A stretch of 64,000 nt of DNA from Anaeromassilibacillus sp. An172 (GTDB taxonomy: Bacteria > Bacillota > Clostridia > Oscillospirales > Acutalibacteraceae): the NCBI RefSeq assembly GCF_002160515.1, contig NZ_NFKS01000007.1, positions 1 to 64,000 on the forward strand, given 5' to 3'. The position numbers were made by a program, and so were the translations under genes. Positions 39,804-55,144 of the stretch are shown piece after piece. The notes below the pieces were generated by a model. It made no database searches. It had not been told where the DNA came from and saw nothing but the letters and a program-made list of their open reading frames with translations. Position 1 is the stretch's first letter. The number at the start of each line of letters is the position of its first letter.

Positions 39804-40007
39804 ATGAACAGGATTGCTAGATTTATTAAAGAAAACAGAAAAGCGGCAGGTCTTACCCAAGAGGAATTTGCCATGCGTTCGGGGCTTGGCCTTAGATTTG
39901 TAAGGGATTTGGAACAAGGTAAAGAAACAGTAAGAATGGACAAAGTAAACGCCGCACTTGCCATGTTCGGCATGGAAGCGGTTCCCGGCAGAAAGGAAGA
40001 TAAATAA
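39804..40007 (+). CDS. hipB: HipB-like HTH antitoxin/repressor
   Basis: 67 residues forming one XRE/HipB-type helix-turn-helix (GLTQEEFAMRSGLGLRFVRD) plus a short tail KETVRMDKVNAALAMFG, the usual HipB pattern. It probably binds the three upstream TATACC-N6-GGTATA palindromes as a dimer and represses its own operon together with the kinase complex. Its stop overlaps the next start (TAATG, 1 base). The ribosome site (aaagtg) is weak. Operon position and operators support the call. Confidence 0.88.
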   Translation: MNRIARFIKENRKAAGLTQEEFAMRSGLGLRFVRDLEQGKETVRMDKVNAALAMFGMEAVPGRKEDK

Positions 40008-40336
40008 TGCAGACTCTCAGAACTGCCTATGTGTATGTGAGAAATATTTACGCAGGAGAATTAAAAGAAACAGACAGCGGTTATTCTTTTCTCTACGATG
40101 AAAACTATCTTTTATCCCAAAACCCTGCTCCCGTGTCCCTTACCCTTCCATTACAAAAAGAAATGTACACATCAAAAGTTCTTTTTCCTTTTTTTGACGG
40201 TTTAATACCCGAAGGCTGGTTGTTAAATATCGTCAGCAGAAACTGGAAAATCGACACAAAAGACAGGTTTCAGCTTCTCATGGTTGCCTGTAAAGACTGC
40301 ATAGGAAATGTAAGTATAAGGGAGGAACGCATATGA
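40007..40336 (+). CDS. hipS: HipS-like protein (HipA N-terminal subdomain)
   Basis: 109 residues matching only the first N-terminal subdomain of HipA: YVYVRNIYAGELKE at the start and FPFFDGLIPEGWLLNIV, the family FxxLLPEG motif. In ordinary HipA this region is fused to the kinase; here it is a separate gene between the HTH and kinase genes, as in the tripartite HipBST system, where the small protein rather than HipB neutralises the toxin. It is intact, not a frameshift, since it overlaps the kinase gene by an ATGA junction. Confidence 0.85.
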   Translation: MQTLRTAYVYVRNIYAGELKETDSGYSFLYDENYLLSQNPAPVSLTLPLQKEMYTSKVLFPFFDGLIPEGWLLNIVSRNWKIDTKDRFQLLMVACKDCIGNVSIREERI

Positions 40337-41280
40337 ACTGTCTTTGCTGCGGTAAGCCTTTAAAAACACAGGAATACGAAACAGGATGGCATAAAAGCTG
40401 TATCAAAAAATTTTTCGGAACTGCACAGCTTCCGGAAATTGAAATATCAAACCAAGCTTTGATACATTTGGTATCAGAAAATATAAACAGAGGTTACACC
40501 GTTCCCGGCGTACAGAAAAAATTATCTCTCCATCTGTCAACCGATAAAAAAACAAAGCTTACAATCGTAAATTATCCCACAGGATACATTTTAAAACCTC
40601 AGGTAGAAGAATTTGAATGTCTTCCTCAGGCGGAACAGCTTATAATGACAATGGCTGATGTTGTTGGAATTCCTACGGTTCCTCATGCACTTGTAAAAGA
40701 CGGAGAAAATCTCGCCTATATAACAAAACGTGTGGACAGAATTTTTTCTGATAAAGGAAAAATACAGATGCTGGCTATGGAGGATTTTTGTCAGCTTGAC
40801 CTGAGACTTACACAGGATAAATACAGAGGCTCCTATGAGCGCTGTGCAAAAATAATAAGCAAATATTCCTCACGAACCGGACTTGATATGACAGAGCTTT
40901 TCATGCGTCTTGTATTTTCATATATTGTTGGAAATTCCGACATGCATCTTAAAAACTTTTCCCTTATAGAAACCTTTGAAGGCTCAGGGGAATATGTTCT
41001 CTCACCGGCCTACGATCTGCTTCCTGTCAATACAATAATGCCGGAGGACAAGGAACAGTTTGCCTTGACAATGAACGGTAAAAAAACAAACATACGCAGA
41101 AAAGATTTTCTTGTGTTTGCCGAAAACTCCGGTCTTTCAAAAACCGCCGCCGAGAAAATGATAGACAAGCTGAAAAAATCGGAAGATAAACTCATTTCAA
41201 TGTGCAAAGAGTCTTTAATCGCCGACAAACAAAAGGAAAATCTGATAAATCTTATTTCAGCAAGAATACAAACTCTATAA
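40333..41280 (+). CDS. hipT: HipT-like serine/threonine kinase toxin
   Basis: 315 residues. A short N-terminal CLCCGKPL...WHKSC segment (about 3-23) looks like a small zinc-binding knuckle. The kinase body shows the Gly-rich loop GVQKKLSLHLS (about 59-69), lysine-containing YITKRVDRI, catalytic loop GNSDMHLKNFSLI and the metal motif AYDLLPV. HipA-family kinases phosphorylate aminoacyl-tRNA synthetases and stop growth; the target here is unknown (EPEC HipT modifies TrpS). The start overlaps the hipS-like gene by 4 bases. Confidence 0.88.
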   Translation: MNCLCCGKPLKTQEYETGWHKSCIKKFFGTAQLPEIEISNQALIHLVSENINRGYTVPGVQKKLSLHLSTDKKTKLTIVNYPTGYILKPQVEEFECLPQAEQLIMTMADVVGIPTVPHALVKDGENLAYITKRVDRIFSDKGKIQMLAMEDFCQLDLRLTQDKYRGSYERCAKIISKYSSRTGLDMTELFMRLVFSYIVGNSDMHLKNFSLIETFEGSGEYVLSPAYDLLPVNTIMPEDKEQFALTMNGKKTNIRRKDFLVFAENSGLSKTAAEKMIDKLKKSEDKLISMCKESLIADKQKENLINLISARIQTL

Positions 41281-42738: not shown

Positions 42739-42775
42739 CTAATCAGCGTCCTTTTGGGCGCTGATTTTTTTATTT
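42739..42775 (+). terminator. Terminator after amidohydrolase gene
   Basis: ATCAGCGtCC pairs with GGgCGCTGAT over TTTT and is followed by a T-run. Confidence 0.8.
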
Positions 42776-42822: not shown

Positions 42823-42850
42823 TTGAAAAGTTTTTTGGATGTTATATAAT
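42823..42850 (+). promoter_or_regulatory. Promoter of lipoprotein cassette 1
   Basis: TTGAAA (42823-42828) and TATAAT (42845-42850) with a 16-base spacer, about 50 bases before the first lipoprotein gene. Confidence 0.65.
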
Positions 42851-42899: not shown

Positions 42900-44417
42900 A
42901 TGAGGAAAAATTTTAAGAAAATTCTATGCTGTCTGCTTGCAGTCACTGTACTTGCAGGTGTTCTTACCCTTTCAGGATGTAAGGAAGAACAAAACACAGC
43001 CACAATTAAATGGGGTATTTACAGATGTTCAGAGGAAGACGCCGTAATTTTGGAAAGCTCTCTCAATGCGGAGCTTGAAAACCTGTCAAAGCCCTACCGT
43101 GTGGATATTTCCGGCTTTAATTATTCCGACTACAACGATGATTATGAAAAGCTTTCCTCAGATTTCGATATTTTCTATCTGGAAAACAGTAACAATCCCG
43201 ATGATTTCACGTCGTATCTTCAAGACATTATAAACTGTGTGGAAAACGGATGTTTCATGGCTCTTGACGACATCTTTTTTGAGGGTCAGGAGGAAATTAT
43301 AGTGAACACAATTACAGAGCAATATGTCATTGAAGAAAATCTTGATTACGGAAAATTTGACGGCGTTCAGTACATATTCCCCACCAACATAAGCTCAGTA
43401 AAAAATGCAATATCAGTAGGCACAAGCTTTGGAGTTAAGACAAAGTTATTCGAGGAAGCTCAACTGCCTATGGAAGAATACATGGTGGATATAACAGAAG
43501 CCGACCAGCTTCTTGAAAAGCTTTCACAATATTCAAGCACCCTTATATATCTTCCCACAGACAGCCTTGTGGATATAGTGAATCATGACACAAGCATTGA
43601 TAAAAAATACGTTCTTCCATACGGTGTTTACGGTTTTCACTACGTTGTACCCAAAAATCTGATGTTTTATCTTGAAATATATACCTATCTTTTCCCGGTT
43701 TCGGGAGTGGGAATGACAAGGGAAACAGAGCCGAAAGTTTTTAACCTTTTCTCCGATGAATACTTTATAGACTATGTAAAAGCTATGGTGAGATATCGTG
43801 AAAAGGGATATACAACGCAATTAGACACCTTTGATATAAACAATTCAATGGGGCACGGAGTAAAGGATTTACCTATAGTGGCAGGCGATTTTACTCTTCT
43901 GCCCACCGGTTCAGGAAAATATATTTACTATTCTCCGGAATCCATACAAAAAACAAGTCTCTGCGGTCTTGCTGTATCCTCAAAAACCGAGAAAAAGGAT
44001 GAAGCTTTAGCATTTCTTTACGACCTCATAACAGACAAGGATGTTAAAAAGTCCCTTTACTCAGAAAGTGACCAATACTATGTGAGCCTTTTTGATGAGG
44101 AACTTTGCAGAGTAGCTTTCTCTCCAAAAGATGAAAACGGCGACCGTATCGCCCCTTATCTTGAAGCATTGGAAAACGCTCAGGAGATTGACAAACCAAA
44201 CGGTTTTGACCTTACTGGACTTGAGGATGTAAAAGAACAAATCGACCTTTATGTCTGTGAAATAACCAGAAACTTTTTCTATGATAACGGAGTTTTAGCC
44301 GATGAAAACGGAAATATAACTGAAGAAAGCATTGAAAAAGGTATGGCAGAAGTTGCCCAGCACCTTGAGGAATTGGGTATTCAGCAAATTATCGACCGAA
44401 TTGAAGAACAGCTTTAA
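42900..44417 (+). CDS. Lipoprotein, solute-binding-protein-like, cassette copy 1
   Basis: 505 residues with a lipoprotein signal (lipobox LTLSGC, cysteine near 27). The body resembles extracellular solute-binding proteins of ABC importers: FDIFYLEN, a YIFPT hinge-like segment, GLAVSSKTEKKDEALAFLYDLITD near the C-terminal third. No sugar or peptide importer genes are adjacent. The last 40 residues (NGVLADENGN...LEELGIQQIIDRI) are a conserved helix also in its paralogue at 46178. It is cotranscribed with the next lipoprotein gene 26 bases downstream. Function is unknown. Confidence 0.8.
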   Translation: MRKNFKKILCCLLAVTVLAGVLTLSGCKEEQNTATIKWGIYRCSEEDAVILESSLNAELENLSKPYRVDISGFNYSDYNDDYEKLSSDFDIFYLENSNNPDDFTSYLQDIINCVENGCFMALDDIFFEGQEEIIVNTITEQYVIEENLDYGKFDGVQYIFPTNISSVKNAISVGTSFGVKTKLFEEAQLPMEEYMVDITEADQLLEKLSQYSSTLIYLPTDSLVDIVNHDTSIDKKYVLPYGVYGFHYVVPKNLMFYLEIYTYLFPVSGVGMTRETEPKVFNLFSDEYFIDYVKAMVRYREKGYTTQLDTFDINNSMGHGVKDLPIVAGDFTLLPTGSGKYIYYSPESIQKTSLCGLAVSSKTEKKDEALAFLYDLITDKDVKKSLYSESDQYYVSLFDEELCRVAFSPKDENGDRIAPYLEALENAQEIDKPNGFDLTGLEDVKEQIDLYVCEITRNFFYDNGVLADENGNITEESIEKGMAEVAQHLEELGIQQIIDRIEEQL

Positions 44418-44443
44418 AGGCTTAGATAAAAGGAAGTGATTTT

Positions 44444-45601
44444 ATGAAAGTTAAAAAACTATCATTGATTATATGTCTTGCTTTATTGCTTTACGCATTT
44501 ACAGCCTGCTCCAAAAATGAGAAAACACAGACGACAGAATGGGAAAGCTACAGCACAACAGGCTTTAAAGTCTACAAAGACGGTGTATTTTTCACCGACA
44601 ATAACACTATTCTCCACTACTTCGACGCCTCTTCAAAGGAAAACGTCATATTGTGCGATAAAAAGGACTGTCAGCACTCCGGCTCAAGCTGTCACGGATA
44701 TATAGGTTCATCCAGAGGTTACGTGGTTTCCGGTGAGCATATCTACACCTTAAATAGCAATGATTCCTTTGACACTCTTATTGAGTCAAATATAGATTAC
44801 ACAAATCACAGAGAAACCGTATCCTTAGGCAAAGCCTTGACAGAACAGGGATATTATATATCAGCAGACAGCTTTTTGGTTTCCGGCGATTATCTTTACT
44901 ATTTAGCGCAGGTTACAAACTTTGATACAGGCGACTCCTATTACGGAATTTACGGTATAAACATAAAAACCGGAAAAGAAACCACAATAGCTGACCGCCA
45001 AAAAAGCTCAAGCGACCTGAATATTGTCAGCGTCTGCGGCCCTGAGATAATCTATTTTACCTCTTATCTTGACGAAGAGCTTAGCAATCAGATTTACGGA
45101 ATTGAGCAGGAGACTATAGACTGGGAACAGTGGAATAAAAAATTTAAAGAAATCGAAGAACAAAGAACCTACAGCGTATACAGGTACAATATAGAGACAA
45201 GGGAAACAACAGTATTTTACGAAAACAAAACAACAACGCTCCCCCTTTTCGCAAATGAAAACTCCTTGTATTGTATGAACTATACCATTGAAGAAACAAG
45301 CTTTGCTGCCGACAAATATTTCACTGTTGACCAGAAAACACAGGAAGAAAAAACCGTTACTGAGGATGAGTATTACAAAGCCTTTAGAGGATATACCGAC
45401 AGAGAAAAGGAAACCATAACCGGCGGCAATGAGAATATAAGCATTTACTGCCTTGTAGACAGCGGCTATATAGGCACAAGAACCGACAAAAAAGTTCCGA
45501 CAGGTGAAAATTCTTACCTTATAACAAAGCAAAGCTATGTTTTAATAGATAAAAACAATCCTCAAAATGAGCCTTTTGTTTTCTATACTTTTGAAAAATA
45601 A
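44444..45601 (+). CDS. Lipoprotein with CDKKDCQHSGSSC motif, cassette copy 1
   Basis: 385 residues with a lipoprotein signal (AFTACS). After FKVYKDGVFFTDN come repeated GDYLYYLA-like and YGINIKTGKET-like strands suggesting a beta-propeller or TolB-like surface protein. The motif LCDKKDCQHSGSSCHGYIG (about 72-90) places three cysteines and a histidine close together, perhaps a metal or disulfide site. A GYIGTRTDKKVPTGENSY block lies near the end. The family is unknown to me; a paralogue follows at 47734. It belongs to a two-gene unit with the preceding SBP-like lipoprotein. Confidence 0.75.
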   Translation: MKVKKLSLIICLALLLYAFTACSKNEKTQTTEWESYSTTGFKVYKDGVFFTDNNTILHYFDASSKENVILCDKKDCQHSGSSCHGYIGSSRGYVVSGEHIYTLNSNDSFDTLIESNIDYTNHRETVSLGKALTEQGYYISADSFLVSGDYLYYLAQVTNFDTGDSYYGIYGINIKTGKETTIADRQKSSSDLNIVSVCGPEIIYFTSYLDEELSNQIYGIEQETIDWEQWNKKFKEIEEQRTYSVYRYNIETRETTVFYENKTTTLPLFANENSLYCMNYTIEETSFAADKYFTVDQKTQEEKTVTEDEYYKAFRGYTDREKETITGGNENISIYCLVDSGYIGTRTDKKVPTGENSYLITKQSYVLIDKNNPQNEPFVFYTFEK

Positions 45602-45634
45602 CTTTAAAAATTTTTTAAAAATCACGCAAAAAGC

Positions 45635-45663
45635 TTGCAATTATATTTTTAATATGTTATACT
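45635..45663 (+). promoter_or_regulatory. Promoter between the two lipoprotein cassettes
   Basis: TTGCAA (45635-45640) and TATACT (45658-45663) with a 17-base spacer. It would drive the small decayed gene and cassette copy 2. Confidence 0.65.
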
Positions 45664-45740
45664 CTTACCATAATAAATTTTAAATAAGTTGATTATTTTT
45701 ATATGCAATTTACAGTAAACTATTTTAGGAGGGGAGTCCG

Positions 45741-46154
45741 ATGTGCTGTTGTTAAATTTAGATTTATAAAAAATGTCCATTCATACCAAACAACAGGTGT
45801 TTATAATATGATGGAATACACTACTACGGTGAGCTTCAGTTGGGACTTAGCACTTCAAATATTTATGCAAAAGGAACAACAAGCCGTACTTCGGGTGGAA
45901 ACGGATTTACAGGTGTCACCGTATATGCTACCGGCAATAAGGCAGAAGGAAGTATTGGTAAATATACAGATTATAAAGGCTATTCTACCGGAGGTAGTTA
46001 TGCTGAAGTGTACCTCCGCAGTGGTAATGTAAATGGCGGAATGGGTAGTATTGACGGAGCTGTGGGACAGCACTATGTCACAAGCAAAAGTGTAGATTCT
46101 GCTTTTACTACATATGGTAACTACAGCTATCTCTTTGATTATTATGATTTATAA
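45741..46154 (+). pseudogene. Decayed small Gly/Ser/Tyr-rich protein gene between cassettes
   Basis: A strong AGGAGGGG site (45728-45735) sits 7 bases before ATG 45741, but that frame stops after MCCC. The same frame, after two more stops, reopens at about 45804 and runs to 46154 as YDGIHYYGELQLGLSTSNIY and a Gly/Ser/Tyr-rich end of about 100 residues finishing YLFDYYDL. A second frame carries KFRFIKNVHSYQTTGVYN in the gap, as expected from frameshifts. It is probably a frameshifted gene for a small secreted or surface peptide. A real short protein from TTG 45840 cannot be excluded. Confidence 0.45.
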
Positions 46155-46177
46155 GCCTTAAACAAGAAGGTGATTTT

Positions 46178-47650
46178 ATGAGGTTTAAAAAACTAATTTC
46201 CGCTTTGCTTTGTATGGTTATTGTTGTTTCTTTGTTTTCAGGCTGTAACAATGAAGACAAACCGGTCACTCTCAGCGTAAGACTCACTTTTTCAATAGGC
46301 ACAGAGCTTGAAGAATACGAGGACGATATAAATGCAAAGCTCGAGGAGCTTCAAAAGCCCTATCGTCTTGATTTTTCAACAGTTCGTTACCAAGAATATT
46401 TTGACGAAGATGGGAACTTTACAAATTACAGCAAGCTGATTGACGATTTTGATGTTTTTTATGTTGACAACGGTATTGTAAGCAACAGCACTTCTGTTCA
46501 GGGAATCCCCCAGCTTCTTGAAAACCAATGTCTTTATTCCCCTGAGGATTTATGGACGGAGGAGCAGTACGAGGACGTAAAGAAAGAATACCTCATAGAT
46601 GAAAACCTGGATTCCGGAAGATATAAAGGCAAGCTCTATATAATACCCACCTCTTTCGGAGTTATTATACCTTTCAGCACAGACGGCGGCTTTGCCATAG
46701 ACAAAGAGCTTTTTGAAAAAGCCAATCTCACGGAGGAAGACTACATGGTGGATATAACCCAGGCGGACGCCCTCTTCCAAAAGCTCTATGAAGCCAACGA
46801 ATATGAAGCTTTGTTTGCATATGACACTATTCCTGCTCATTTTAAGACTTATTCGGTTGAAAATTATATTGTAAAGGTTATCTCTACTCATTGCAATAAA
46901 TACAAATATCTGGTTTCGGGAGTAGGAGTCACAAAGGAAAACTCTCCAAGGGTATTCAACCTGTTTTCCGACCCGTATATGGTTGAATTTATAAAGGCTA
47001 TGGCGAGATATAAAAACGCCGGGTATATGACTGAAACAGTTACGTCTGCAAAAGTAAATGTCTCTATATCTTCCACCAGCAAAAATACTATCGCAGCCTT
47101 TGGCTCTATGTATGTAACACCATCACCAACCGGAACATACGGCTATTACCCACCGGACAATATGCAGGAAACCGTTCTTACAGGTATGGCTATATCCTCA
47201 AAAACACAGCACAAAGATGAAGCGGCGCAGCTTCTCTATGACCTTGTATGTGACGATGAGGTAAAGAAGCTTTTTGGAAAGCATGATGTAAACGCCCTGT
47301 ATACAATAAATGTTTGCCAGGATATGGATGTAAATGAGTGGTCTGACGCCTATTATCCTGCGGACGAAAGCGGAGACAGAGTTACGCCTTATCTTGAAAC
47401 TGTAGAAATCGCAAAGCCCTATGACAATATTTCCTATATAGACCTTACAGGGCTTGAGGAGAAAAAGGAAGCCATTGACAGCTATATAATTGAGATAAGT
47501 GAAAGCTTTTTCGACGAAAACGGAGTTTTAGCCGATGAAAACGGAAAGCTTACAGATGAAAGCGTAGAAAAAGGAATGGCGGAAATTGCACAGCGCCTTG
47601 AGGAGCTGGGTATTCAGGAGATTATAGACCGTATTTCAGAGCAGGTTTAG
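46178..47650 (+). CDS. Lipoprotein, solute-binding-protein-like, cassette copy 2
   Basis: 490 residues, clear paralogue of the product encoded at 42900. The lipobox is LFSGC near residue 23. Shared segments include ELQKPYRLDFST, EDYMVDITQAD, YLVSGVGVTKENSPRVFNLFSDPY, MAISSKTQHKDEAAQLLYDL and the C-terminal ADENGKLTDESVEKGMAEI. Copy 1 and copy 2 have diverged substantially in the middle, so the duplication is not recent. An AAGAAGGTGATTTT leader nearly identical to the other three genes precedes the ATG. Ligand unknown. Confidence 0.8.
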   Translation: MRFKKLISALLCMVIVVSLFSGCNNEDKPVTLSVRLTFSIGTELEEYEDDINAKLEELQKPYRLDFSTVRYQEYFDEDGNFTNYSKLIDDFDVFYVDNGIVSNSTSVQGIPQLLENQCLYSPEDLWTEEQYEDVKKEYLIDENLDSGRYKGKLYIIPTSFGVIIPFSTDGGFAIDKELFEKANLTEEDYMVDITQADALFQKLYEANEYEALFAYDTIPAHFKTYSVENYIVKVISTHCNKYKYLVSGVGVTKENSPRVFNLFSDPYMVEFIKAMARYKNAGYMTETVTSAKVNVSISSTSKNTIAAFGSMYVTPSPTGTYGYYPPDNMQETVLTGMAISSKTQHKDEAAQLLYDLVCDDEVKKLFGKHDVNALYTINVCQDMDVNEWSDAYYPADESGDRVTPYLETVEIAKPYDNISYIDLTGLEEKKEAIDSYIIEISESFFDENGVLADENGKLTDESVEKGMAEIAQRLEELGIQEIIDRISEQV

Positions 47651-47678
47651 CTCTTTCTGAAAATAAAATTTTATTAAA

Positions 47679-47717
47679 ATATTGGCTCTGCGAATAAAAA
47701 ACGCAGAGCCAATATTG
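47679..47717 (+). terminator. Perfect hairpin between cassette 2 genes
   Basis: ATATTGGCTCTGCG pairs perfectly with CGCAGAGCCAATAT around an A-rich loop. No T-run follows on the plus strand, so it may be an RNA-processing, stability or partial-attenuation element rather than a full terminator. Cassette 1 has no equivalent in its 26-base gap. Confidence 0.5.
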
Positions 47718-47733
47718 CTAACGGGGTGATTTT

Positions 47734-48897
47734 ATGAAGCTTAGAAAACTTTCACTGATTATGTGTCTTGTTTTATTGATGTCCTTATTTACAGCCTGCT
47801 CCGGCAATGAAGAAACACAGCAGCCGCTGCAGTGGGTTAGCCACACTGCAACCGGCTTTAAAGTCTATAAGGAAGGTGTATTTTTCGTAGACAAAAACGG
47901 TATACTCCAATATTTTGATGCCGCTTCAAAAAAAACTGTAGTATTGTGCGACAAAAAAGACTGTCAACATTCCGGCAAAAGCTGTCACGGATATATAGGC
48001 TCAGCCTATAGTTACAATGTATCCGGCGGCAAAATCTACACCTTAAACGATGAAGACTCCCTTTACACCCTAATTGAGTCGGATATAGACTTTACAAACC
48101 ACAAAGAAACCGTAACTCTGGGAAAAGAACTTTCCGAAGAGGGATTTTATATAGATCCAATGAGACCTTTGGTTTCCGGAGATTATATATACTATGTAAC
48201 AGAGGTCTCAAACTTCAACACAGGTGAATCCTATTATGGAATATACGGCGCAAATTTAAAAACCGGCAAGGAAGCCACTATTATTGACCATATGGAACAA
48301 GGAACATTAGACATTGTAAGTGTCTGCGACTCTGAAATAATATATTTTACCTCATATCTTGACAAGGAGCTAAGCAATGAGATTTACGGTAGTATTCCAA
48401 ACGAATTAGACTTTGAAGAATACAGTAAAAAATTCAAAGAGTACGAAGAACAGAGAACCTACAGAACATATAAATATAATATAGAAACAGGAGAAACCAA
48501 AGTGCTTTACGAAAATAAAGCGGCTGCACTTCCTGTTTTTGCCGATGAAAACTACTTATATGCTTACACCTACACTGTTTATGAAGCTACGCAGTCCTTT
48601 GTTCCCGATAGATATTTTACTGTTGACCTTAAAACTCAGGAAGAAAAAACCATCGGCAAGGACGAATTTGAGAAAAAACAGCGTGGCTTCTCCGAAAGCG
48701 AGGCAGACGCCATAACCGGCGGCAGTGAGGATTTGGTTATTTACTGCCTGACGGACAGCGGCTATATAGGCACAAGAACCGACAAAAAAGTTCCGACAGG
48801 TGAAAATTCTTACACTATAACAGGACAAAGCTACGTTTTAATAGATAAAAACAATCCTCAAAGCGAACCCTTTGCTTTTTACAGCTGGGAGGATTAA
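47734..48897 (+). CDS. Lipoprotein with CDKKDCQHSGKSC motif, cassette copy 2
   Basis: 387 residues, close paralogue of the product at 44444. Lipobox LFTACS. The cysteine/histidine motif LCDKKDCQHSGKSCHGYIG is essentially unchanged between copies, as is GYIGTRTDKKVPTGENSY, marking likely functional sites; the intervening beta-rich regions vary more. It ends 35 bases before an ABC ATPase gene, which suggests cotranscription with the exporter. Role unknown. Confidence 0.75.
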   Translation: MKLRKLSLIMCLVLLMSLFTACSGNEETQQPLQWVSHTATGFKVYKEGVFFVDKNGILQYFDAASKKTVVLCDKKDCQHSGKSCHGYIGSAYSYNVSGGKIYTLNDEDSLYTLIESDIDFTNHKETVTLGKELSEEGFYIDPMRPLVSGDYIYYVTEVSNFNTGESYYGIYGANLKTGKEATIIDHMEQGTLDIVSVCDSEIIYFTSYLDKELSNEIYGSIPNELDFEEYSKKFKEYEEQRTYRTYKYNIETGETKVLYENKAAALPVFADENYLYAYTYTVYEATQSFVPDRYFTVDLKTQEEKTIGKDEFEKKQRGFSESEADAITGGSEDLVIYCLTDSGYIGTRTDKKVPTGENSYTITGQSYVLIDKNNPQSEPFAFYSWED

Positions 48898-48932
48898 CAA
48901 TAGCAAAAACTATATAAAAGGAGGGCGGTTAT

Positions 48933-49814
48933 ATGGAGCTTAAACTAAAAAACATAACAAAGCAGTACGGTGAGAAAAAAGCCCTTGACAATTTTTCCCT
49001 CACCTTCAAGCCGGGCATATACGGACTTTTAGGGCCCAACGGCTCGGGAAAATCCACAATGATGAAAATTATCACCGACAACATAAGCCCCACAAAGGGC
49101 GAGGTTTTTTGGGATTCCACACCCATTTTAAAAATGGGCGACCAATACCGCTCACTTTTAGGCTATATGCCCCAGCAGCAGGGAATATACGACAACTTTA
49201 CCGCAAGGCGTTTTTTGTGGTACATGTGCGCTTTAAAGGGTATCCCGAAAAGGGAAATCCCCAAAACGGTGGAACAGGCGGCAAAAAAAGTTAATCTCTA
49301 TGACGTTTTGGACAAAAAGCTTGGGGGCTTTTCCGGCGGAATGAAGCAGAGAGTTTTAATAACTCAGGCGATTTTGGGCGACCCGAAAATACTTATCTTC
49401 GACGAACCCACCGCAGGACTTGACCCCAAGGAGCGCATAAGAATAAGAAATTTAATTTCGGAAATCGCCTTTGACCGAATTGTAATAATCGCCACACATG
49501 TTGTGCCTGATATTGAATTTATCGCCAAAAAGGTGGTTATGCTGAAAAGCGGCGTGTGTTACGGCTGTCTGCCACCGTCAAAATGGCTTAAAACAGCAGA
49601 GGGCAAGGTTTTTGAATTTCCCGCAAGGGAGAAGGACATTCCCTTTATTGAAAAGCTTTTCGTGGTGGGAAATTTAAGGCGTGACGAAAAGGACACGGTA
49701 TGGGTAAGAGTGGTTTCCGACAAGAAACCCAAAGCCCCCAGACTTTCCGTTCTCCCTCCCACACTTGAGGATGTTTACCTGTATATGTTCAACGACAGAG
49801 GTGAGAAAAAATGA
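48933..49814 (+). CDS. ABC transporter ATP-binding protein
   Basis: 293 residues. Walker A GPNGSGKST, Q-loop YMPQQQG, signature FSGGMKQR (F in place of the usual L), Walker B ILIFDEPTAGLD and switch histidine ATHVV are intact. The C-terminal 80 residues follow the pattern of ABC-2 type drug or peptide exporters. GGAGGG lies before the ATG. Its end overlaps the permease start by ATGA, so they form one exporter. The adjoining lipoprotein cassettes hint at a joint surface function. Confidence 0.93.
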   Translation: MELKLKNITKQYGEKKALDNFSLTFKPGIYGLLGPNGSGKSTMMKIITDNISPTKGEVFWDSTPILKMGDQYRSLLGYMPQQQGIYDNFTARRFLWYMCALKGIPKREIPKTVEQAAKKVNLYDVLDKKLGGFSGGMKQRVLITQAILGDPKILIFDEPTAGLDPKERIRIRNLISEIAFDRIVIIATHVVPDIEFIAKKVVMLKSGVCYGCLPPSKWLKTAEGKVFEFPAREKDIPFIEKLFVVGNLRRDEKDTVWVRVVSDKKPKAPRLSVLPPTLEDVYLYMFNDRGEKK

Positions 49815-52009
49815 TTTTATGGGAACTTAAAAAAATTCTCACCGGAAAAATCGCTTTACTGCTTATTATGGCTTTGGGTATAAATCTTTTTATTTTCTAC
49901 TACACCGAAAGCCTTGAAACTCAGGAAAATCCCTATTTCACACCCCAGAATTACCGCAGTGTTTTTGCGGAAATGGAAAATCTGAACACATCCGAAAGGG
50001 TTTCATTTCTTAAAAATAAAATAGACGTCATACAGGAAAAAATAAACGACCCGGAAACCGGCTACGACGAAAATCTTTACGACGAGAGAGATTTTCTAAA
50101 TGAGCTTTACGAGGAAGCTTTGTTTATACAAAACTACGAAAATTTCCTCACGGACTCAGAGGAAAACGCCTTGAAAAAGACCTCTGTTTCAATCTTCGGA
50201 GAAAAAGGCTCCTTTGCCTACAACAACGCCATAAAAATGGCAGAGGACTTTCAAAGCCTCCACGGAACGCCTGTGTCCTTTGACAAAACCCACGGCATAA
50301 CCGCCGCCACGGGACTTTTTACCGGGGACATTATAACAGTGTTTATTCTCCTTTTGATTGTGGGCGAGCTTCTTATAAAGGAACACCAGCAGGGCATAAT
50401 GCCTGTTATCAGAACCACAAGAAAAGGCAGGAAGCAGGTTATACTTGCTAAAATATTCGCAGTGCTTATAATGTGCTTTTTTCTTTCCCTTATCTTTCTT
50501 TCCGTCAATCTGCTGTACTCCGCTGTTGTATACGGCTTGGGCGACCTTTCAAGGCCTGTCCAATCCCTGCCCGGCTTTGCCGCAAGCACAGTAAAAATAA
50601 ACATCTGGCAGTATTTCATTCTTTTATGGATTGTAAAAGCCTTTGCATTTTTTATTGTGGCGTCAATAGCAATAATATTTTCTGTAATTTTCGCCAACAG
50701 CATCGCCGCCTACGGCTTTACGGGAATAATTCTTGCAATAAACTATGTTCTCTACTTTGTAATTCCCGTAACCTCACCGATGGCACAGCTTCATTTTTTG
50801 AACTTGGGAAACTTCCTTTCCGGAACCTCACTGTTCTGCGGTGAGGTAAACCTCAACATCTTTTCAGTCCCCATGGACGTGCTTACCATTTCACTTATAA
50901 TTATGGCGGTACTTGCACTGGTTCTGCCCATAATAAGCGTTTTGATATTTGTAAAATCCAAAAAGGAAAAGGGCAAGCTGAAAATCTTCTCCCGACTGCC
51001 CTCTCCCCACAGGAAAAAATATTCCTCAGGGATTTTCAGTTACGAATGTTTCAAGCTTTTTGTAAGCAACGGGGCAATTATTATTTTCGCTGTTTTTATA
51101 GCGGTGCAGTTTCTAAGCTACCCGCAAAAAGACACTCTAACCGCCTACGAGCAGTGCGAAATAAGCTACATAGAAACATTAAAGGGCGAATACACAGAGG
51201 AAAAACTAAATTATCTGCAATCCGAGTACGAGGAAAACGCCGCCTTGAGCCATGACAATTTCACAGCAAGGACAAAGGCATACAGCATTGAAAGCAAGCT
51301 TCTCCCCCTTGCCTATCATTTGCAGGAGCTTGAAGCCCAGGGAGAAAATGCGGAGTTTGTCCCCTATTCCGGTTATGCATACCTATTTAATCCGGACTCA
51401 AAAACAGCGTCAGCTTCCGCCTGTTTTTTGATTTTGTTTATAGCAATATCGGTTACAAGCCTTTTCCCCATGGAAAAAGCCACAGGAATGAACCAGATTT
51501 TAACAACCACCCTTAAAGGCAAGGGAAAAACTGTAAGCACAAAGGTTAAAGCCTGTCTTATGCTCTCCGTAATCATGTGTGTTTTGGCTTTTGCGCCGGA
51601 CTTTATCTACTGCCTGAGAATGTACGGCTTTGATAGTCTTATGAGCCAAAGTCAAAACCTTATGGTGCTTTCCGAAAGCTTTATGTCACTTCCCATAATG
51701 GTATATATGATAATTCTGTATCTTATAAGACTTTTGGGCGTTATAGGCCTTACGGTTATTATCTTAGGTATTTCCTCTCTTTTAAAATCTCAGATAATTT
51801 CCGTGCTTTTAAATCTTGCAATTTTCGGAGCGCCTGCTATTCTTTCAATGATTGATTTTAAAATCCTTGACAATTTCAGCATGGTGTCGATACTCTCCGC
51901 AAACAAGCTGTTTTTCAACAATTTACAGCTTATTCTATCCCTTTTGGGAATTATAATTCTCACCGCCCTTGGAGCGGTTTTACTTAAAAAATCTCAGAAA
52001 ACATGTTAA
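49811..52009 (+). CDS. ABC-2 type transporter permease, large
   Basis: 732 residues, longer than common ABC-2 permeases. Two halves each carry a helix, a large extracytoplasmic charged region (about 40-170 and 445-515) and a bundle of five or six helices; EHQQGIMPVIRTTRKGRKQVILAKI and EKATGMNQILTTTLKGKGKTV are matching ABC-2 type motifs in each half. It seems to be a fused pair of permease domains. It works with the ATPase just upstream; cargo unknown, with peptide, lipid or antibiotic possible. Confidence 0.88.
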   Translation: MILWELKKILTGKIALLLIMALGINLFIFYYTESLETQENPYFTPQNYRSVFAEMENLNTSERVSFLKNKIDVIQEKINDPETGYDENLYDERDFLNELYEEALFIQNYENFLTDSEENALKKTSVSIFGEKGSFAYNNAIKMAEDFQSLHGTPVSFDKTHGITAATGLFTGDIITVFILLLIVGELLIKEHQQGIMPVIRTTRKGRKQVILAKIFAVLIMCFFLSLIFLSVNLLYSAVVYGLGDLSRPVQSLPGFAASTVKINIWQYFILLWIVKAFAFFIVASIAIIFSVIFANSIAAYGFTGIILAINYVLYFVIPVTSPMAQLHFLNLGNFLSGTSLFCGEVNLNIFSVPMDVLTISLIIMAVLALVLPIISVLIFVKSKKEKGKLKIFSRLPSPHRKKYSSGIFSYECFKLFVSNGAIIIFAVFIAVQFLSYPQKDTLTAYEQCEISYIETLKGEYTEEKLNYLQSEYEENAALSHDNFTARTKAYSIESKLLPLAYHLQELEAQGENAEFVPYSGYAYLFNPDSKTASASACFLILFIAISVTSLFPMEKATGMNQILTTTLKGKGKTVSTKVKACLMLSVIMCVLAFAPDFIYCLRMYGFDSLMSQSQNLMVLSESFMSLPIMVYMIILYLIRLLGVIGLTVIILGISSLLKSQIISVLLNLAIFGAPAILSMIDFKILDNFSMVSILSANKLFFNNLQLILSLLGIIILTALGAVLLKKSQKTC

Positions 52010-52346: not shown

Positions 52347-54383
52347 TTATTTTTCCTTTCCTCCGCTGACTATTGAATAATAGGCTCTCGAGGTGATTTT
52401 ATACACCAGCATATAAAGCAGTGCAAACAAAAGGAAACATCCCACCGTCACCATTATCAAAAAGACTTTATTTACAAGTCCGAAAAGTATAAGCATTTTG
52501 TAAATCATCGGGAACGCAAAGGCGAGATGTACCCCTGAGGCGATAAGGGGCATAAAGAATACTGTGAGCATCTGTGAGTTTATGCTCTTTTTGATTTCTC
52601 TTTTAGTCATGCCCACCTTTTGCATTATCTCAAATCTGGACTGGTCCTCATAGCCCTCGGAAATCTGCTTGTAATACATAATAAGCACCGCCGCAAATAT
52701 GAACACTATACCAAGTATTATTCCAAGGAAGAACAATCCGCCGAACAGTCCATAGAAAGACTGCTTTTCATTTGAGGCGCTTTCCACCGATACAACAAGG
52801 CTGCTGTCGGGATTTTCGATTTCCGAATTTCTCAAATTATCGCTTATTGCGTCGTAGACCTGAACCTGCTCTGTGTCTGAGGCGTTTAAATCAAAGCCTA
52901 TGAATCTGCTTACCGTTTCCAGCGCCTCAGCGTTTGTCTGTGAAATTCTTTCAATCTGAACGCCAAGGTCAGGCACAAAGATATACAGAGCCGGAATAAT
53001 CTGCATTGTATCCACGCCGTTGTTTTCAAAATTGGTACCTTTTGTCTTTATATTCAAAGGCTCCTGTCCCTTTATGCTTACAGTATCATAGCCGTAATTC
53101 ATATCCTTGCTTGTGCTTATAAGCACCTCGTTATTCTCAAGTGTTTCCTTTGAGCCTGTTATTCTGTTGTAGTCCTCAAGGGGAACCATGAATATCTGCC
53201 ACAAATCCCCTGTTGCGTAATCAAAGCCGCTTTCTCCGTCGTCGAAGACAATCTCTCCGTTTCTGATATAGCTTACAAAGGCAAGGGTTGAATAATCCAG
53301 AAAGTTTTCGGGACTATATCCCATATTTTCCGCTGTTTCAATGCTCATTTTTGCAATGCTGTTAGCGTCCTGTGAAATCAAATCTGAATATATCTGAGAT
53401 GTCATAGTTATATTTATATTTCTGGGATATCTCTCCCTTAATGAATCCTCTTTTCCCAAATAAAGGCACACTGTAGAGGATATCATAACCAAAACCATGG
53501 TACAGAGTATGCATATTGAAGCGAGACCGGCTCCGTTTCTCTTCATTCTATAGCTCATGGATGAAACGGATACAAAATGGTTTGTCTTATAGTAGTAATT
53601 TTTCTTTTTCTGCAAAATCTTACAAAATGCCACAGAACCGGAAATAAATATAAGGTAAGTGGCGATGATTACCATAATAACCGCAAAGAAGAACGCCGCA
53701 AGTGTTGTTACAGGGTCTTTAATTGTAACTGCAAGATAGTAGGCGCATCCCAAAATCAAAACTCCCAAAACCGCAAAGAACCAGTTTGCTTTAGGCGGTT
53801 TTTCTCCCGCATTTTCACTGTGAAGCAAGGCTATAGGGTTTGAAAGATGAACCTGTCTGAGGGAATTTAAAAGTATTAAAAAGAATATAACCGCAAACAA
53901 AACCACAGTGTAATAAATAGCTTTATAATCAATGGTCACGCCAAAGGTTACATCCATGCTCATTATGTTTACCATAACAAGCTCTGCAAGCTTTGAAAAC
54001 AAAACTCCCAAAGCCATTCCCACAGCTATTGAAAAAGCACCTATAAACAATGTTTCCCAAAGCATTACACGGGCGATATTTCTTTTGCCCATTCCCAAAA
54101 TATTATACAGACCAAATTCCTTTTTTCTTCTTCGTACAAGAAAAGAGTTGGTATAAAAAAGGAAAATCACTGCAAAAAATCCAATTACATACACTCCAAA
54201 GCCGAGAATACCTCTCATAGTTTCTCCGCCGGGGTAGTTCATCATCATATCACTGCTTGAAAGAAAGGTTATAATATAGAACATCATAACCATACCTATG
54301 CAGGTTAAAATATATGGTATATAAAGCTTTTTATTTTTCTTTATGCCTGTAAGGGCAAGGCGTGAATAAATTCCTTTTTTCAT
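52347..54383 (-). CDS. BceB-type ABC transporter permease
   Basis: 678 residues with about ten membrane helices and one large extracytoplasmic domain (about 320-530) between helices VII and VIII, the BceB/VraG architecture. KEFGLYNILGMGKRNI and QSRFEIMQKVGMTKREI are the paired FtsX-like coupling motifs. BceAB transporters confer resistance to bacitracin or other lipid-II-targeting peptides and sense flux through a partner kinase. Its start overlaps the ATPase stop by 4 bases. No kinase/regulator pair is adjacent here. Confidence 0.9.
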   Translation of the reverse strand: MKKGIYSRLALTGIKKNKKLYIPYILTCIGMVMMFYIITFLSSSDMMMNYPGGETMRGILGFGVYVIGFFAVIFLFYTNSFLVRRRKKEFGLYNILGMGKRNIARVMLWETLFIGAFSIAVGMALGVLFSKLAELVMVNIMSMDVTFGVTIDYKAIYYTVVLFAVIFFLILLNSLRQVHLSNPIALLHSENAGEKPPKANWFFAVLGVLILGCAYYLAVTIKDPVTTLAAFFFAVIMVIIATYLIFISGSVAFCKILQKKKNYYYKTNHFVSVSSMSYRMKRNGAGLASICILCTMVLVMISSTVCLYLGKEDSLRERYPRNINITMTSQIYSDLISQDANSIAKMSIETAENMGYSPENFLDYSTLAFVSYIRNGEIVFDDGESGFDYATGDLWQIFMVPLEDYNRITGSKETLENNEVLISTSKDMNYGYDTVSIKGQEPLNIKTKGTNFENNGVDTMQIIPALYIFVPDLGVQIERISQTNAEALETVSRFIGFDLNASDTEQVQVYDAISDNLRNSEIENPDSSLVVSVESASNEKQSFYGLFGGLFFLGIILGIVFIFAAVLIMYYKQISEGYEDQSRFEIMQKVGMTKREIKKSINSQMLTVFFMPLIASGVHLAFAFPMIYKMLILFGLVNKVFLIMVTVGCFLLFALLYMLVYKITSRAYYSIVSGGKEK

Positions 54384-55144
54384 CTTCTGTCACCGCCTGT
54401 TGCAAGCATAGTAAGTGTATCTGAAATCTTCTGATAGAACTGCTGTATTGTGTTATTCGCTCTATAAATCTGGTGGAACACCTCTCCGTCCTTTATGAAC
54501 ATAACACGTCCGGCATGGCTTGCCGCCTTTACTGAATGTGTAACCATTAAAATTGTCTGTCCGTACTTATTTATCTCTCCGAACAGCTCCAAAAGCTCAT
54601 CTGTTGACTTTGAGTCCAAGGCTCCTGTAGGTTCGTCTGCCAAAATCAGCTTTGGGTTTGTAATCAATGCTCTTGCCACCGCCGCACGCTGTTTCTGACC
54701 GCCTGACACCTCGTAAGGATATTTTTTCAAAAGCTCGGTAATTCCCAGTCTTTGAGCTATAGGGTCAAGTCTTTCTTTCATTTCCCTATAGGGTCTGCCC
54801 GCAAGCACCAGCGGAAGATAAATATTATCCTCCAAAGAAAATGTATCAAGCAGGTTAAAATCCTGAAACACAAAGCCCAGATTATCACGTCTGAACGTTG
54901 CCACCTGTGATTCCTTTATCTTTGCCAAATTCTGACCGTCCAGCACAACAACTCCTGATGTAGGCTTATCCAAAGCCGCAAGGATATTGAGCAATGTAGT
55001 TTTACCTGAACCGGACTCACCCATAATTGCCACATATTCTCCGTTTTCTACGGAAAAGTTTACGTTTCTAAGGGCTTCAACTCTATTTCCGCCCAGTCGT
55101 GTTGTATATACCTTTCTAAGTCCGCTGACCTCCAAAATACTCAT
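54380..55144 (-). CDS. BceA-type ABC transporter ATP-binding protein
   Basis: 254 residues. Walker A GESGSGKT, Q-loop VFQDFNLLD, signature VSGGQKQRAAVARAL, Walker B LILADEPTGALD and H-loop VTHSVKAASHAG are intact, and the LolD/MacB-type layout fits BceA. AGGAGG lies 8 bases before the ATG. It heads a three-gene operon (ATPase, permease, small protein). Three structured repeats lie just upstream on the opposite strand sense. Confidence 0.93.
   Translation of the reverse strand: MSILEVSGLRKVYTTRLGGNRVEALRNVNFSVENGEYVAIMGESGSGKTTLLNILAALDKPTSGVVVLDGQNLAKIKESQVATFRRDNLGFVFQDFNLLDTFSLEDNIYLPLVLAGRPYREMKERLDPIAQRLGITELLKKYPYEVSGGQKQRAAVARALITNPKLILADEPTGALDSKSTDELLELFGEINKYGQTILMVTHSVKAASHAGRVMFIKDGEVFHQIYRANNTIQQFYQKISDTLTMLATGGDRR

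Follow-up and report, generated by a model that had tools for sequence, protein, structure and literature searches.

Among the closest described systems, NisI and NisFEG act cooperatively (available parts of PMC4828448), Cpr combines a two-component system with an ATP-binding cassette (ABC) exporter and an adjacent lipoprotein without a demonstrated resistance role (available parts of PMC5786555), and mediterrocin of Mediterraneibacter gnavus is a Sec-secreted bacteriocin of gut Clostridia with an ABC protein in its cluster (available parts of PMC12345188). Here we analyzed a stretch of 64,000 nucleotides (hereafter the window) of Anaeromassilibacillus sp. An172, contig NZ_NFKS01000007.1, labelled C61, from a 2.8 Mb genome, which carries an operon of lipoprotein and ABC exporter genes. 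Six genes on the plus strand follow each other in the order A1, B1, A2, B2, ABC ATPase and permease, where A is a solute-binding-protein-like (SBP-like) lipoprotein and B is a lipoprotein with a Cys/Cys/His/Cys motif; related loci add a third component, here called SSP for small secreted protein. Each of the six genes was found at its expected coordinates, and the tandem two-gene lipoprotein unit followed by an ABC ATPase and a two-domain permease, reported in a preliminary description of this DNA, was found again. We give about an even chance to the explanation that the window genes represent the self-protective part of a module of the bacteriocin type, whose SSP gene has decayed so that the two A-B units with the exporter have been left as orphan immunity. 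The preliminary description had offered peptide sensing, immunity or export quality control as the role of this surface system; immunity fits best of these options.

The likeness to LanI/LanFEG and to Cpr consists in a membrane-anchored lipoprotein and an ABC exporter, with a two-component system, beside the genes of a secreted antibacterial (available parts of PMC4828448 and PMC5786555), and those of our loci in which a regulator and a kinase-sized protein accompany B and the exporter are arranged like Cpr, where a lipoprotein adjoins the genes for the regulator, the kinase and the ABC exporter (PMC5786555, the same parts). On the other hand, the SSP, in the loci that have one, carries a signal peptide of the Sec type and is not matched by any lantibiotic model, and B, in contrast to LanI, is a beta-propeller-like protein of 380-440 amino acids (aa) with a Cys3-His site, sometimes accompanied by an SBP partner. 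The window ATPase reaches 142.3 bits with the TIGR03740 model, whose cut-off is 309.75, and a single 732-aa two-domain permease is found in the window instead of two permease genes, LanE and LanG being encoded separately. Since the ATPase scores far under the model cut-off and the permease is a single two-domain protein, the module may work like LanI/LanFEG in its logic but is not a member of this family. No lantibiotic precursor or modification genes were seen among the 18 window genes or the Pfam-scanned open reading frames (ORFs) around the operon, a scan that included no dedicated search for them.

With lactococcin 972 and mediterrocin the module shares a small Sec-secreted protein, a large membrane protein, an ABC ATPase and the occurrence in gut Clostridia (available parts of PMC12345188). 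However, the lactococcin 972 model (PF09683 and its NCBIfam equivalent) matches none of ten SSPs in Pfam and none of eight in NCBIfam at E<=1; the immunity protein of that family is a DUF1430 protein with seven transmembrane (TM) segments (PMC12345188, the same parts), whereas the window permease matches only ABC2_membrane_3; and the mediterrocin paper (PMC12345188) nowhere uses the term lipoprotein. BceAB is likewise an antimicrobial-peptide resistance exporter with a two-component system (available parts of PMC5786555), and a BceAB-like pair adjoins the operon, but the permease of the module matches ABC2_membrane_3 and not FtsX. Finally, A is a clear relative of the SBPs of ABC importers (SBP_bac_1/DUF3502), yet no importer permease is encoded on the contig, and A is linked or fused to B and the exporter. 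A description of the module was not found in searches of the open-access literature, including the available parts of PMC12345188, PMC4828448, PMC5786555 and PMC13289728, a coverage outside which subscription journals largely lie; the module in Clostridia is apparently undescribed so far.

Homologs of B were collected with a profile of nine proteins (E<=1e-5); as no more than four candidates were scored in each genome, the counts are lower bounds. Homologs were found in at least 34 of the 394 genomes sampled from the order and in at least 15 of 391 from the class, the genome of the window being included in both of these overlapping samples; a two-row B profile found homologs in five of 200 genomes of the family. 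Sixty eight fetched regions, in which genes were called mechanically as the longest ORFs, yielded together with the window 72 B clusters. Under a strict linkage rule, which admitted only genes on the strand of B within 4 kb on the 5' side and 5.5 kb on the 3' side and only ATPases matching that of the window at E<=1e-40, the permease family was found in 49 clusters, the ATPase in 47, either of them in 52 and both in 44; for the 47 clusters with an uncut 3' flank, the last two values were 36 and 33. With looser labels, which accepted every large membrane protein and every ATPase match with a Walker A motif, the number of clusters with either partner rose to 54 of 72, and an SSP was present anywhere in the region in 24 cases; the SSP enrichment, the covariation in L125 and the permease-based count given below are independent of this difference. 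The homologous loci have the order B-ATPase-permease or B-permease-ATPase, and in one of them, L102, both exporter genes lie just beyond the distance limit.

Reciprocally, the permease profile (E<=1e-20) matched 48 of 295 genomes and provided 32 regions new to the set, although the contig of one of them (L152) also appears in the B search. A permease was called in 31 of these regions, and 24 of the 31 carry B on the same strand. The seven others comprise two loci cut at the 5' side (L157 and L171), one whose neighboring gene has the motif but no profile match (L150), one with B on the other strand only (L172) and three without B (L144, L147 and L156). The preliminary description had suggested a surface system in which the lipoproteins are coupled to an ABC-2 exporter, and this is borne out by these counts (52 of the 72 clusters with B, 24 of the 31 loci with a permease), which also rule out chance or artifact as the source of the gene grouping; homologs of B mostly occur with an exporter gene. 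A and B do not form an obligatory pair: only 12 of the 72 B clusters contain A, either as a separate gene or fused to B, so that B mostly occurs without A, an observation that the preliminary description had named as one that would speak against it. The fusions, single chains of 886-899 aa, are encoded by two genes in L103 and one in L105. The constant core of the predicted module is B, the ATPase and the permease, and its recurrent extra partner is the SSP.

The SSPs, encoded directly upstream of A or B in some loci, are proteins of about 116-178 aa with a Gly/Ser/Tyr-rich mature part and an N-terminal signal peptide of the Sec type, as judged by rule and by eye. The rule demanded 80-215 aa, a basic start, a hydrophobic stretch, no lipobox, no second TM segment and a gap of at most 500 bp. 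SSP-like ORFs so defined precede 21 of 118 A/B genes, compared with three of 300 genes of other kinds that encode 250 aa or more (Fisher test, 7e-10), and the same rule applied to the permease-recruited set gives five of 31 versus three of 164 (p 0.003). The arrangement is best illustrated by L125, where six consecutive SSP-B pairs, with a further B gene at the cut edge, precede a single ATPase gene and a single permease gene. The SSPs of this array are 82% identical in the signal peptide and 74% in the mature N-terminus, 40% and 32% in the middle, and 49% at the end. The distance matrices of its SSPs and B proteins correlate with r=0.86, a value reached by three of 720 permutations; the SSP-B pair moves and diverges as a unit in this locus. 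The order SSP-A-B is found in L102, L110 and L135. Another locus, L095, has seven B genes and no SSP, which suggests a run of orphan immunity genes.

A gene overlooked earlier lies between B1 and A2 on the plus strand (45741-46154) and is a disrupted coding sequence. A ribosome-binding-site-like (RBS-like) sequence and an ATG at 45741 are followed by 21 codons, a stretch of signal-peptide length, which include three in-frame stops, and then by 115 open codons (45807-46151) with the stop 23 bp 5' of A2. The codon-use score of the open part is 0.143, just under the 5th percentile of the window genes (0.160, mean 0.418) and well over the 95th percentile of off-frame sequence (-0.271), so that this part looks coding, at the low end; at the local composition 115 open codons would arise by chance with a probability of about 7e-5. 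The gene is preceded by a promoter-like site (TTGCAA-17-TATACT, 45635-45663, plus strand, 9 of 12 consensus matches), with TG before the second hexamer. We conclude that a small-protein gene has probably decayed in the part corresponding in length to a signal peptide. Because the decayed gene, A2 and B2 repeat the SSP-A-B order of L102, L110 and L135, and because its size, codon use and promoter/RBS context agree, it is a probable SSP pseudogene.

These observations suggest the following scheme. In complete modules the SSP would be released through Sec, the exporter not being needed for this step because SSPs carry their own Sec-type signal peptide. Lipid-anchored B, joined in some lineages by A, would bind the cognate SSP at the surface of the producer, and the ABCA-like exporter would pump the SSP or an SSP-target complex off the membrane, by analogy with LanI and LanFEG acting on lantibiotics. 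SSP-B pairs would duplicate and diverge together, and a single exporter could serve all of them. In the window, where the SSP gene appears dead and two A-B units and the exporter are retained, the outcome would be protection without production. We infer that SSPs are antibacterial, that A and B bind them, that the exporter removes them and that the pseudogene of the window once encoded an SSP.

Several results weigh against this explanation. Twenty of the 72 B clusters, several of them cut by contig ends, have neither the ATPase nor the permease in reach, and an SSP-like ORF is found directly upstream in only 19 clusters. Two SSP calls counted among both the 21 and the 19 (L023 and L137) look like lipoproteins by eye, and the rule is crude: one of the five hits in the permease-recruited set is a B fragment, while one of its three control hits (L161) lies inside a cluster of this kind. 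No SSP scored above the cut-off of any family model (ten compared with Pfam, eight with NCBIfam), and leave-one-out profiles recovered only two of 19 SSPs (L110 and L080) below E 0.01, so that a common ancestry of all SSPs does not follow. The covariation in L125 does not prove an interaction of SSP and B, since co-duplication alone produces it. The window ORF itself gave a best Z of 1.9 in pairwise comparisons with SSPs, which is not significant, and a best E of 0.023 with SSP profiles in two leave-one-out runs, with no match to the full profile. Two-component and Agr genes, which are found near some of the loci, are common beside unrelated systems.

A broader claim, to which we assign somewhat less than an even chance, is that the loci represent an undescribed widespread class of Sec-secreted small-protein bacteriocins of gut Clostridia, with modular immunity at the surface provided by a Cys3-His propeller lipoprotein and a repurposed SBP, with an ABCA-like exporter, with toxin-immunity pairs diversifying around this shared exporter, and with orphan arrays as in the window. 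If true, a large and testable family of antagonism genes would be added in Clostridia, in which an SBP and a beta-propeller perform the work of LanI. The members tested are named by no Pfam or NCBIfam model above cut-off, be they B or SSP, and the B motif and the ABCA-like permease would then serve as handles for finding SSPs too divergent for similarity search.

Regulatory genes were counted in 101 sources, namely the window, the 68 regions and the 32 regions recruited by the permease. Regulators resembling the OmpR-type one of L138, a copy of L083, occur in nine of them, usually followed by a TM protein of kinase size and then by B, the ATPase and the permease, the kinase being confirmed by Pfam for L138 only; among the window genes scanned, no such regulator or kinase was found. 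Loci of this type lend themselves to another explanation, antimicrobial-peptide resistance without a toxin of its own, in which the module protects from peptides made by others or by the host, while the SSPs would have an accessory role as decoys or at the surface. We consider it unlikely. In its favor, no SSP was found in 53 of 72 clusters, a BceAB-like pair (52347-55144) adjoins the window operon, and the regulator, kinase-like protein, B and exporter occur without a directly upstream SSP in L083, L093, L094, L095, L098 and L107, in a layout resembling CprABC-CprRK with its adjacent lipoprotein (available parts of PMC5786555). What it leaves unexplained is the alternating SSP-B array, the shared divergence of SSP and B and the enrichment of SSPs upstream of A/B genes.

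AgrB homologs are encoded in five of the 101 sources (L016, L020, L102, L128 and L129), four of which seeded the local profile; Pfam confirmed AgrB in L016, L102 and L129, GHKL kinases in L016 and L102, and a LytTR regulator in L016. Their proximity, together with the secretion and Gly/Ser/Tyr-rich composition of the SSPs and the lack of a known toxin domain in them, would be consistent with a secreted-signal or adhesin system, the SSP being a surface or signaling protein and A/B with the exporter acting in its maturation, display or turnover. This appears rather improbable to us: an array with one exporter and hypervariable SSP middles, as well as SSP-free runs of B such as the seven genes of L095, resemble a weapon and orphan immunity, and Agr systems control bacteriocins too. 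It is very improbable that the SSP leaves the cell through the exporter with B assisting its secretion or folding; the tight linkage of B and the exporter would agree with such a role, but the SSPs have N-terminal Sec-type signal peptides of their own and many exporters occur without an SSP. The least probable explanation, to which we attach hardly any weight, is that the lipoproteins are remnants of a nutrient importer, A delivering substrate to a permease encoded on another contig and the exporter being an incidental neighbor, because the match of A to importer-type SBPs, the presence of SBP_bac_1/DUF3502 in its relatives and the eight PF00528 permease matches on other contigs of the genome are set against a contig without an importer permease, the fusion of A to B in three genes of two loci, the position of A between SSP and B in three loci and a B-exporter linkage that persists across families.

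The assignment of the individual components, all encoded on the plus strand, is as follows. A1 (42900-44417, 505 aa) and A2 (46178-47650, 490 aa) are 40% identical, and B1 (44444-45601, 385 aa) and B2 (47734-48897, 387 aa) are 66% identical, in both cases over the full length and far above chance. By eye, all four begin with a hydrophobic signal and a lipobox-like Cys (LSGC in A1, FTAC in B1). A profile of 11 A-family rows matches solved SBPs at 4.8e-35, while A2 alone gives SBP_bac_1 at 7.7e-05 (23.3 bits, under the curated cut-off of 26) and A1 alone has no Pfam match. DUF3502 was found in six A relatives tested, two of which also match SBP_bac_1 below or near the cut-off; the DUF3502 model has no match in the genome of the window. 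Sequence profiles thus identify A as a clear relative of importer SBPs. No PF00528 match was found on contig C61, in agreement with the preliminary description, which had noted no importer permease near these lipoproteins; the eight matches of the genome are on contigs C2, C19, C34 and C62.

The same source had named a confident match of both lipoproteins to importer components as an observation that would speak against it, and for A such a match exists. B matches beta-propellers. A 21-row B profile matched the solved chains of oligogalacturonate lyase (1.2e-6 and 6.1e-4) and of a Kelch protein (2.7e-5); the Kelch match and the stronger lyase match each comprise two stretches. Designed Cake/SAKe repeat propellers were matched down to 2.9e-9, though here no single stretch passes alone. 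B is probably a beta-propeller lipoprotein. None of the B members tested exceeded a Pfam or NCBIfam cut-off, the nearest being DUF4652 on a B of L095 (21.6 bits versus 23.3). The genome has two copies of B, a third match reaching E 0.69 only.

The ATPase (48933-49814, 293 aa; ABC_tran 9.9e-30) has the Walker A, signature and Walker B motifs; its nearest solved relatives are ABCA1, ABCA3, ABCA4 and ABCA7, and the GldA, DrrA and lantibiotic-protection models match it below cut-off. Its gene overlaps by 4 bp with that of the permease (49811-52009, 732 aa), which matches ABC2_membrane_3 at 2.2e-07 (30.8 bits, just under the cut-off of 31.6). According to hydropathy, the first half of the permease starts with a single TM helix, which is followed by an ectodomain of some 145 aa and by further TM helices, the second half repeats this plan with an ectodomain of about 100 aa, and about 14 hydrophobic segments are present overall. 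This suggests an ABCA-like layout; the permease profile had no match in the PDB, and the SSP profile had a single one, at E 0.88.

The motif LCDKKDCQHSG(S/K)SCHGYIG, described earlier as nearly invariant between diverged copies, is indeed identical in 19 of 20 positions of B1 and B2, but ten of 368 segments of 20 residues, itself included, are at least as identical. Conservation between B1 and B2 alone was rejected as proof of function for this reason, the longest identical stretch of the pair being likely due to gene conversion. This stretch, 60 bp of identical DNA near the 3' ends of the two genes (45458-45517 and 48754-48813), is the most identical one of the pair and probably results from such an event. 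The motif is supported instead by the differing codons of the window copies, where five of the 19 identical residues are encoded by different (synonymous) codons, and by the retention of Cys/Cys/His/Cys throughout the family. Of 107 aligned rows, 105 have C, C, H and C in the four columns (C71, C76, H78 and C83 of B1, 44654-44692, by the family alignment; C72, C77, H79 and C84 of B2, 47947-47985), and the remaining two are stray A proteins; this figure is partly circular because motif-bearing proteins seeded the B profile. Among 137 B proteins between 300 and 620 aa long, 123 retain the pattern C-x4-C-x-H-xn-C, with a spacing between the His and the last Cys of four residues, as in B1, in 78 proteins, of five in 13 and of 6-21 in the rest. 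All but one of the 14 exceptions belong to the permease-recruited set; they include proteins in which C-x4-C persists with a different spacing or the histidine is missing. The conserved four-residue site proposed in the preliminary description is thereby confirmed family-wide, and it may serve in metal binding, redox chemistry or disulfide formation, as that description suggested.

In a collection of named contigs, a search with B of L083 found relatives in four loci of metagenome-assembled genomes, one being the same contig, labelled Clostridiales, Lachnospiraceae and Oscillospiraceae; B2 of the window found none there. Judging from these kinds of organisms, the carriers may be called gut Clostridia. 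Four B-family queries against a viral collection gave no confirmed relative. Anti-phage defense was considered and rejected, since PADLOC gave no match for B1, A2 and the permease and its matches to the ATPase were to generic ATPase parts.

Multiple copies of B or A, additional permeases or fusions in L119 (G348:C32), L114, L105 and L161 point to repeated reshuffling of the module. The flanks of L019 (G146:C10) contain genes resembling, by eye, ParM, ParB, relaxase and integrase genes, and L105 is flanked by two serine recombinases, also by eye; both suggest mobile elements. B may be solitary in L086, L101, L111, L115, L121 and L130, where no ATPase or permease is in reach on the same strand.

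In the window, a promoter-like site TTGAAA-16-TATAAT (42823-42850, plus strand, 11 of 12 matches) lies about 50 bp 5' of A1; this site and the one preceding the decayed gene are consensus matches from a scan giving 38 sites versus 23.3 expected. The upstream gene is closed by a terminator-like stem-loop (42741-42766, plus strand) with an 11-pair stem, six G-C pairs and a T tail, weak evidence as a single site because the scan gave 19 sites versus 9.6 expected in shuffled sequences. The BceAB-like pair downstream of the operon is encoded on the minus strand and consists of an ATPase and a permease of the FtsX type, in which some 240 aa toward the end of the chain are extracellular; in L105, the cluster is followed by a response regulator, a kinase and an ATPase similar to the BceAB-like one. 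Upstream, two adjacent ORFs (40007-41280) encode HipA N-terminal and HipA C-terminal domains, a split HipA-like pair.

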